Below, piece after piece: positions 22,316 through 25,086 of a stretch of 33,848 bases of DNA. The DNA comes from an uncultured Clostridia bacterium (GTDB lineage: Bacteria; Bacillota; Clostridia; Lachnospirales; Lachnospiraceae): positions 1 through 33,848 of the forward strand of contig CAMAKT010000005.1 of the NCBI GenBank assembly GCA_945836135.1, given 5' to 3'. The number at the start of each line of letters is the position of its first letter. Within the stretch, counting starts at the first letter, position 1. The notes below the pieces were generated by a model. The model saw nothing but the letters and a program-made list of their open reading frames with translations, had not been told where the DNA came from and did no database searches. The translations under genes were made by a program, and so were the position numbers.

Positions 22316-23722
22316 TTACACCGGATAAGCTCCGTCCTTGGCTGCTGTAGCATCAACCTTGGTCTGCTGTGCTTCTCTGTACTTGAAGAAATCCATAGCA
22401 ACCTGTGGGAAGAGTGCGTAGGAAAGCACATCCTCATCCTGCTGCTTGTACTGCTTCATCTCCTCCTCAAGCTTAGCAAGCTCAGGCTGGAGAGTATCTG
22501 CAAAGCGGCAGGTGATTGGCTGCTCGCCTGTAAGCTCAATAGCCTTCTGCTGAACTTCAGGATTGAAAGGCTTAACAGTCTTGCCGTACTTACCAAGAAG
22601 TAAGTCCTTGGACTCCTTAGTCATATTCTTGTATCTTTCGCCGAGAACAACATTGAGAACTGCCTGTGTTCCTACAATCTGGCTTGAAGGTGTAACAAGA
22701 GGTGGTTCACCGAAGTCCTTACGAACTCTTGGAACTTCCTCAAGAACCTCTGTAAACTTGTCCTCTGCCTTCATTTCCTTTAACTGGGAAACAAGGTTGG
22801 AAAGCATACCGCCAGGTACCTGGTAAAGAAGGGTCTTAATATTAACGCCCATAACCTTGGTGCTCATAAGACCACTCTTAATCCACTCCTCACGAAGAGG
22901 TGTGAAGTAAGCTGCAATCTCAGCAAGAAGATTCTGGTCAAAGCCAGGGTCATACGGTGTACCCTCAAATGTCTTTGCAAGAACCTCTGTAGCAGGCTGG
23001 CTTGTACCCATAGCCATAGGAGACATTGCTGTATCAATTCTGTCACAGCCTGCCTCAACAGCCTTAAGGTATGTCATTGAACCTACACCGGATGTATAGT
23101 GGGTATGAAGGTCAATAGGAAGGGATGTTCCCTCCTTGAGAGCCTGAACAAGCTCCGTTGCAGCATAAGGAACTAAGAGACCTGCCATATCCTTGATACA
23201 GATGGAGTTCGCACCCATATCCTCAATTCTCTTTGCCATATCCTTCCAGTAATCAAGAGTGTATGCATCTCCTAATGTATAGGAAAGAGCCACCTGAGCC
23301 TCAACGCCTTCGGAGTTAGCTGCCTTAACTGCTGTCTGAAGGTTACGAATATCATTCAGACAGTCAAAAATACGAATAACATCAATTCCGTTAGCTGCGG
23401 ACTTCTTAACGAAGTATTCTACCACATCATCTGCATACGGACGATATCCGAGAATGTTCTGACCACGGAACAACATCTGAAGCTTGGTGTTCTTGAAGCC
23501 ATCCTTAAGCTTACGAAGTCTCTCCCATGGGTCTTCCTTTAAAAATCTTAAACATGCATCAAAAGTTGCACCGCCCCAGCATTCTACAGCGTAGTAGCCA
23601 ACCTTATCCATCTTCTCGATGATAGGAAGCATCTGCTCCGTTGACATTCTGGTGGCAATGAGTGACTGATGAGCATCACGTAAAACTGTTTCAACAATCT
23701 GAACCGGTTTCTTCTCTGCCAT
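22316..23722 (-). CDS. oadA: Oxaloacetate decarboxylase alpha / pyruvate carboxylase B-type carboxyltransferase, no biotinyl domain
   Basis: VQIVETVLRDAHQSLIATRM...YYAVECWGGATFDACLRFLKEDPWERLR...CIKDMAGLL; ends at 468 aa. Confidence 0.93.
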   Translation of the reverse strand: MAEKKPVQIVETVLRDAHQSLIATRMSTEQMLPIIEKMDKVGYYAVECWGGATFDACLRFLKEDPWERLRKLKDGFKNTKLQMLFRGQNILGYRPYADDVVEYFVKKSAANGIDVIRIFDCLNDIRNLQTAVKAANSEGVEAQVALSYTLGDAYTLDYWKDMAKRIEDMGANSICIKDMAGLLVPYAATELVQALKEGTSLPIDLHTHYTSGVGSMTYLKAVEAGCDRIDTAMSPMAMGTSQPATEVLAKTFEGTPYDPGFDQNLLAEIAAYFTPLREEWIKSGLMSTKVMGVNIKTLLYQVPGGMLSNLVSQLKEMKAEDKFTEVLEEVPRVRKDFGEPPLVTPSSQIVGTQAVLNVVLGERYKNMTKESKDLLLGKYGKTVKPFNPEVQQKAIELTGEQPITCRFADTLQPELAKLEEEMKQYKQQDEDVLSYALFPQVAMDFFKYREAQQTKVDATAAKDGAYPV

Positions 23723-23768
23723 TTTAATTTCCTCCTGAATTAATATATGAAAGCAATATATAATCCTA

Positions 23769-23925
23769 AAATTGCTCCATTCATTTGCTCATGCAAATGA
23801 ATTCCCGCAATTTCCAACAGCAATTCGCAATCCGGCTTATCAGCCTTCTTGCTCATCGCTGTTGCCATCTCTAAAGCAGAACCGAAATGGCCTGCAAGCA
23901 GTCCTTTCGGTTTTGCTTTGAGATG
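23769..23925 (-). repeat. Three contiguous imperfect hairpins filling the oadB-oadA intergenic region
   Basis: HP 23769-23813 (AAATTGC-TCC-ATTCATTTGC-TCAT-GCAAATGAAT-TCCC-GCAATTT), HP 23815-23864 (CAACAGC...GCTGTTG with inner GCAA/TTGC and GGCT/AGCC), HP 23866-23925 (CATCTC-t-AAAGCAGAACCGAAA...TTTCGGTTTTGCTTT-GAGATG). Confidence 0.7.
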
Positions 23926-23928
23926 AGC

Positions 23929-25086
23929 TTATACTCCGAATATCGCCATAAAAGTACCTGCAACTACTGCCGTACCGATAACGCCTGCCACGTTAGGTCC
24001 CATTGCATGCATGAGTAAGAAGTTGGTAGGATCTGCCTCAGCACCTACCTTCTGTGATACTCTCGCCGCCATAGGAACTGCGGATACACCTGCCGAACCG
24101 ATAAGCGGATTAACCTTACCCTTAGTAGCAATGCACATAAGCTTGCCGAATAAAACACCGGCTGCCGTACCAACTGCAAAAGCCACAAGACCAAGTACAA
24201 CGATCTTAAGGGTATCAGCCTTTAAGAATGCCTCAGCACTTGTAGTTGCGCCTACTGATGTACCAAGGATAATAACCACGATGTACATAAGTGCATTGGA
24301 TGCGGTCTCTGTAAGCTGCTTAACAACGCCGCTCTCCTTGAAAAGGTTACCAAGCATAAGCATACCGATAAGTGGTGCAGTTGAAGGAAGAATAAGAACA
24401 ACTATAATGGTAACAATGATTGGGAAGAGAATCTTCTCAAGCTTGGATACCGGACGAAGCTGCTCCATCTTAATCTTACGCTCTTTCTCAGTTGTAAGAA
24501 GCTTCATAATAGGCGGCTGTATAATAGGAACAAGTGACATATATGAGTACGCTGCAACTGCAATCGGACCCATAAGCTCTGTCTGTCCTAACTTACCTGC
24601 AAGGAAAATGGATGTAGGACCGTCAGCACCACCGATAATGGAGATAGCTGCGGCTGCCATACCATTGAATCCAAGGATAATAGCAAGGAAATATGCACTG
24701 AAAATACCAATCTGTGCTGCTGCACCCAAGAGGAAACTCTTAGGGTTTGCGATAAGCGGACCGAAATCGGTCATGGCACCTACACCCATGAAAATCAGGG
24801 ACGGAAGGATGCTCCACTCATCAAGTAAGTAAAAATAATGCAATAAACCTGCGGCCTGACTTCCGGATGCCTTGGCCTCTTCCACTGTCATCATAATGTC
24901 CGGGAAAAGGTTTACAAGGAGCATACCAAAGGAAATAGGAACCAGAAGAAGCGGCTCATAACCCTTCTTAATAGCCAGAAACAGGAAAAATAACGCAACA
25001 GCCACCATAATAAAATTCTTGTATGACAGCGTCATAAAGCCCGTCTGGTTCAGCAGGTTCACCAATGTGTCTGTAAAGATTTCCAT
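23929..25086 (-). CDS. oadB: Na+-translocating decarboxylase beta subunit (OadB/GcdB/MmdB)
   Basis: Polytopic; AISIIGGADGPTSIFLAGKLG motif; PLIANPKSFLLGAAAQ. Confidence 0.95.
   Translation of the reverse strand: MEIFTDTLVNLLNQTGFMTLSYKNFIMVAVALFFLFLAIKKGYEPLLLVPISFGMLLVNLFPDIMMTVEEAKASGSQAAGLLHYFYLLDEWSILPSLIFMGVGAMTDFGPLIANPKSFLLGAAAQIGIFSAYFLAIILGFNGMAAAAISIIGGADGPTSIFLAGKLGQTELMGPIAVAAYSYMSLVPIIQPPIMKLLTTEKERKIKMEQLRPVSKLEKILFPIIVTIIVVLILPSTAPLIGMLMLGNLFKESGVVKQLTETASNALMYIVVIILGTSVGATTSAEAFLKADTLKIVVLGLVAFAVGTAAGVLFGKLMCIATKGKVNPLIGSAGVSAVPMAARVSQKVGAEADPTNFLLMHAMGPNVAGVIGTAVVAGTFMAIFGV

Follow-up and report, generated by a model that had tools for sequence, protein, structure and literature searches.

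The hairpins between oadB and oadA in a Lachnospiraceae genome belong to RF01699, a dispersed and mobile RNA family

What fills the gap between oadB and oadA in the window (the whole stretch of 33,848 nucleotides analysed here), and does the operon make use of it? An earlier note on this DNA had drawn three adjacent hairpins with single-base separation in the gap, and folding of the transcribed strand returned exactly the same coordinates (Table 1). The minimum free energy (MFE) was -80.5 kcal/mol, whereas dinucleotide shuffles averaged -46.6 kcal/mol (sd 4.3), which gives z = -7.9; none of 200 shuffles reached the native energy, and DNA folding parameters gave the same three hairpins. Also present as described are the oadA ribosome-binding site behind the hairpins and, on the minus strand, a 62-codon frame which runs from the oadB TAA (23929-23931) to a stop at 23740-23742 and holds an internal ATG (ORF 23740-23868). 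By sequence reading, the oadA ATG is at 23720-23722.

Table 1. Features of the oadB-oadA region, in window positions.
Feature	Position	Strand	Evidence
oadB, sodium-translocating decarboxylase beta subunit, upstream gene	23929..25086	-	NCBIfam TIGR01109, 481.7 bits
Clostridiales-1 RNA (Rfam RF01699) copy, full model 1-166	23759..23933	-	cmscan 95.8 bits, gathering score 48, E 1.4e-20
Closing stem, left arm TATAA, contains oadB stop TAA 23929-23931	23929..23933	-	sequence; Rfam alignment; family helix 1 covaries
Hairpin 1, long arm with G(CUUG)C tetraloop at its end	23866..23925	-	RNA and DNA folding; compensatory changes relative to sister species
Hairpin 2, AUGAGCAnGnAG ... CGGAnUGCGAAU, GA/GA and GAA/GGA-type internal loops	23815..23864	-	Rfam alignment; near-invariant columns; covariation helices 6-7
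Hairpin 3, AUUGCGGGA ... GGAGCAAU	23769..23813	-	folding; Rfam alignment; covariation helix 9
Closing stem, right arm TTATA, weak here, not in MFE structure	23759..23763	-	sequence; Rfam alignment; folding
oadA ribosome-binding site AGGAGG, 22 nt 3' of element end	23731..23736	-	sequence reading
oadA, oxaloacetate decarboxylase alpha / carboxyltransferase, downstream gene	22316..23722	-	NCBIfam NF008985, 718.6 bits (cut-off 718)

We found that the oadB-oadA hairpin element belongs to Rfam family RF01699, the Clostridiales-1 RNA, at twice the gathering score, and this was the sole Rfam 15 match within the whole window. The window copy is full-length and shares the three hairpins of the family, including the conserved loops of hairpin 2 (UGAGcA..GAAG / CGGA..UGCGAAU), which is the most conserved part of RF01699, and a CUUG-type loop in hairpin 1, itself a family feature. 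The match extends slightly past the hairpins and takes in the oadB stop codon and a closing stem. The copy differs from the family in its longer hairpin 3 and in this closing stem, which covaries family-wide (helix 1) but is reduced here to TATAA/TTATA and falls outside the MFE structure. In the table of Weinberg et al. 2010, Clostridiales-1 is given as a probable RNA, neither cis-regulatory nor a riboswitch, from Clostridiales and the human gut (PMC2864571), and the main text of that paper makes no mention of mobility. A few other papers in the open full-text literature carry its name or accession; judged from titles and abstracts, none of them studies this RNA, and we found no functional explanation of it since 2010.

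RF01699 was then surveyed in 61 genomes, comprising the source genome and its relatives, and in 14 control genomes. Matches were present in 25 of the 61 genomes, with at least one over the cut-off in 18, and none was seen in the 14 controls; copies per genome ranged from none to at least 35 among the matches listed. In the source genome itself, 6 full copies exceed the cut-off, and 14 matches have E values no higher than 1e-3. The suggestion that the hairpins form a dispersed palindromic element, REP-like in form, is thus borne out by copies across the source genome and its relatives. Copies are near-identical within single genomes, tandem copies occur, and several copies lie at contig ends, as is typical of repeats.

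With a pattern of the conserved core we found at least 120 stretches in bacterial genomes, the named matches being mainly Lachnospiraceae, Eubacterium and Clostridiales, compared with 0 exact matches in IMG/VR viral contigs; a phage-borne element was rejected on this comparison. The mobile subfamily has look-alikes in 17 faecal 'Bacteriophage sp.' records that carry no annotation, and these may in fact be contigs of bacteria. Plasmids gave no match.

RF01699 is a dispersed, mobile family. Those of its subfamilies that are near-identical within a genome carry the RNA core followed by a right inverted repeat, CTTTTGACCCCAACATC, which matches the left end, GATGCCAGGGTCAAAAG. An exact 7-bp flanking duplication was found in 23 of the 42 copies with the right inverted repeat, and at least 6 of 7 positions agreed in 32 of them; when left and right flanks were permuted (2000 trials), exact matches averaged 1.5 and never exceeded 7. 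The consensus of the target duplication is ATNNNAT. A duplication shorter than 7 bp was considered and rejected, four copies having, duplicated on both sides, letters that deviate from the AT of the consensus ends (CTTACTT, ATTTTAA, ATAAGTA and ACTTTAT), which favours 7 bp. The first two letters of the element are GA, so that a copy landing just after the T of a stop codon restores TGA, and sequence reading identified insertions of this kind at L018, L066 and L071. The main addition made here is that RF01699 acts as a mobile repeat and comes to rest at stop codons.

As for the features of a MITE, many dispersed copies were found in the source genome, and terminal inverted repeats and the duplication were found in subfamilies of its relatives. 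The RNA core is conserved while the ends vary between subfamilies. In the window copy neither a right inverted repeat nor a target duplication can be recognised, and older copies likewise lack such ends. Inspection by eye of the ORFs of 20 regions revealed no transposase close to the inverted repeats, and inspection of inverted-repeat pairs 1-5 kb apart revealed no autonomous transposon.

The earlier note had also proposed a structured RNA, and besides the match to a known family this proposal gains from strong covariation. The covariance model used here has a hand-set structure and replaced a first, automatic-structure model that was poor (25 pairs). In 86 GTDB copies held out of model building, whose alignment was fitted to the structure and so favours covariation, changes on both sides occurred in 47 of 53 pairs, and the covariation score was 0.502 compared with 0.152 for shuffled and at most 0.089 for slid pairings. 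Helix 9, which is hairpin 3, had 98.5% of its cells paired. In well-paired columns picked on Watson-Crick pairs only, we counted 68 G-U pairs in the sense strand against 37 A-C mismatches, and of the two strands it was the sense strand that gave the better fold in 153 of 155 copies. This sense bias points to selection on the transcript, although single-stranded DNA could fold too.

Where copies sit relative to genes was counted with simple codon-score gene calls, on sets in which same-genome copies are related and the GTDB copies were gathered by their conserved core. Copies were divided by the right inverted repeat, as it is found in just a few subfamilies. Those with the repeat (n = 41) showed no clear preference for either orientation relative to the upstream gene (22 to 18), whereas those without mobile ends were mostly co-oriented with it (75 to 31). 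Of these 75 co-oriented copies, 35 start between -8 and +6 nt from the upstream stop, compared with 1 of 24 in the mirror-image antisense control (Fisher P = 7e-5), the distance window having been set after viewing the data. Stop-adjacent copies split pheS-pheT, rpsL-rpsG, dnaK-dnaJ and yicC-gmk, as read from the protein sequences, and the genes neighbouring copies are functionally mixed.

A terminator-like hairpin with a T run lies directly 5' of 23 of 109 copies without mobile ends in the sense direction, compared with 9 of 109 in the antisense control (Fisher P = 0.01) and 3% of random positions. Four copies lie approximately 20-60 nt after a T-box (two), a lysine riboswitch or a SAM riboswitch, and one follows an SRP RNA. 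The source genome has a copy between a T-box leader and pheS (L002, G000:C7:3665-3825 minus) and another about 15 nt after the large SRP RNA gene (L004, G000:C103:13-172 minus).

At the oadB-oadA site, the element was present in 2 of the 30 closest oadB loci, those of the source genome and of one other searched member of the genus. The other 28 loci are without it, and their gaps are nearly all below 100 nt, one of about 200 nt holding other repeats. Since most related genomes do without the element here, it is not essential to the operon. At pheS-pheT, the element was found in 1 of 30 loci, and a second lineage has one there too. Hence, presence at both loci is lineage-specific and so are the insertions. 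The pheS-pheT elements of L056 (G008) and L154 (Eubacterium sp. RGIG4356) are strongly diverged in sequence. Elements at this site in two lineages suggest either that insertion at this stop codon happened more than once or that the element is deeply conserved there.

The two oadB-oadA copies, from sister species, have 43 base pairs of hairpins 1 and 2 in common. Seven of these differ by compensatory double changes and one by A-U to G-U; none of the 43 is broken, and one pair in each species is unformed in the other. If the 15 changes were scattered randomly, at least 7 double changes would arise with P about 5e-6, in a compensatory test that comprises one orthologous pair. Gene conversion was rejected as the origin of the paired changes, since no other copy in the source genome matches the window copy at more than 79% identity across most of the query. 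Hairpin 3 is not of the same length in the two orthologues. The sister species (L050 after 2145, G001) also has approximately 90 extra nt 3' of the element, in which hairpin 3 and the closing stem are partly repeated, as though a duplication of the 3' part had taken place.

The earlier note would have taken a lack of covariation and of a second copy in any genome, with random drift of both hairpins and frame between close relatives, as evidence against its proposals. In the sister species the fold is kept and the orthologous frame stops after 8 codons; hence, this comparison speaks for the fold and against the frame. Together with the paired changes, it shows that the fold at oadB-oadA has been under selection after insertion.

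Our preferred reading, to which we give a probability of roughly 0.6, is that the window copy is an old, immobile, transposon-derived element captured as an intercistronic RNA, comparable to REP and ERIC, which would act in cis on the oad mRNA, the cis action being the part we infer. On this reading, a small non-autonomous mobile element of family RF01699 inserted itself between oadB and oadA, at the stop codon of oadB, in an ancestor of the genus, and the copy has since been kept as an intercistronic structured RNA of the oad operon transcript. About 4 nt separate the oadB UAA from the first of the three hairpins, and terminating ribosomes should thus meet these structures at once. They may impede these ribosomes and block reinitiation, which would uncouple oadA translation from that of oadB. 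They may also form a nuclease barrier or a processing boundary, giving separate lifetimes to the parts of the message for the membrane and the soluble subunit. A role in stoichiometry or processing is plausible. REPs lower translation when they lie no more than 15 nt from a stop codon (PMC12306157), and the ERIC elements of Yersinia, which are cotranscribed, alter the stability of flanking transcripts, with orientation-dependent cleavage that destabilises upstream transcripts (PMC2229807).

On a wider scale, and tentatively, RF01699 could be a transposable regulatory RNA module, with a covarying core, varied ends, lossless insertion at stop codons through TGA, and repeated recruitment as an intercistronic or post-terminator control (oad, pheS-pheT, rpsL-rpsG, dnaK-dnaJ, T-box-pheS); we regard so general a role as unlikely. 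With the dispersal, target duplications, siting and conserved fold shown here, an orphan RNA family offers a way to test how mobile DNA can seed structure into the mRNAs of gut bacteria, and its many copies call for caution against tallying them as independent small-RNA genes.

The reading that competes most directly with capture takes the element for a passenger, a neutral or selfish repeat of no use for oad expression, its fold kept only because an unfolded, untranslated spacer of 175 nt within an operon would invite termination (polarity) or RNase attack. The site-by-site, lineage-specific presence of the element and its functionally mixed neighbours are what tolerated insertions would give, and settling at stop codons is the expected look of a harmless insertion, since the mobile ends regenerate TGA. 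The conserved internal loops of hairpin 2, however, exceed the needs of mere compactness, and the sense excess and the siting after T-box, riboswitch and other terminators suggest, weakly, more than tolerance. We hold this possibility to be a serious one, if rather doubtful. A trans-acting sRNA, processed from the operon mRNA and working elsewhere, would agree with the Rfam class of the family ('Gene; sRNA') and with the very conserved hairpin-2 core in all copies, and one RNA could come from several copies per genome. Against this, copies sit behind stop codons and regulatory leaders, their number among relatives runs from 0 to dozens, and the oadB-oadA copy has no sigma-70-like promoter (none found in a scan of 23650-24010), so that we consider such an RNA improbable.

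The earlier note had also raised the possibility of a microprotein, for which the frame in the source genome is indeed open and offers its internal ATG. The frame stands behind the oadB stop codon, though, and it is lost in the sister-species orthologue while the fold is conserved; hence, we rejected a microprotein, and translation of the 62 codons would be a great surprise. In view of the same two facts, an in-frame insertion of the kind seen in RPEs is not supported either. Strong hairpins in an intergenic gap could likewise serve as an intrinsic terminator or attenuator between oadB and oadA, but none of them is followed by a U tract, from which simple termination had already been judged unlikely, and the scan of 23650-24010 returned 0 terminator-like sites. 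A terminator here is scarcely credible, and it was rejected together with an internal promoter.

The element resembles several known repeats. Like the REPs of enterobacteria, RF01699 copies are dispersed palindromes, many of them directly behind stop codons; unlike REPs, they are approximately 165 nt long with three covarying hairpins, and their mobile subfamilies have inverted repeats and 7-bp duplications. We know of no sequence relationship between REP and RF01699. ERIC/IRU and other MITEs (Correia/NEMIS, RUP) share with RF01699 a length of about 100-200 bp, highly base-paired transcripts, inverted repeats, target duplications, intergenic location and cotranscription (PMC2229807). RF01699 differs from ERIC/IRU, Correia/NEMIS and RUP in its 7-bp ATNNNAT target instead of TA, and from ERIC and MITEs in that its ends vary by subfamily around a conserved internal RNA core; we saw no Rfam or BLAST link of the element to ERIC/IRU, Correia/NEMIS or RUP. 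The RPEs of Rickettsia are also palindromic dispersed elements with an open frame, but they lie in frame inside proteins, whereas the frame of the RF01699 copy comes after a stop codon and is not conserved.

Several related repeats were seen alongside these copies. A 125-nt repeat at L008, L011, L012 and L014 (G000 C37, C145, C244 and C146) has the same hairpin-2 core with different ends (CGGTGCGCA...GCACCG) and a common left flank, ATTATCGTTTAC..TAC; it scores below the RF01699 cut-off and is apparently a longer dispersed repeat. Copies L160, L163, L174, L208, L215, L221 and L224 form a superfamily of the form (CTA)TGAAAG ... CTTTCA(TAG) with an extra 3' hairpin, often ending in GTTTA, and L215 and L224 contain tandem units of it. 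Finally, L104 and L107 (G000 C36 and C42) are solo or doubled fragments of the inverted repeat (TGATGCCGGGGTCAAAAG...) without the RNA core, possibly remnants of excision or deletion.
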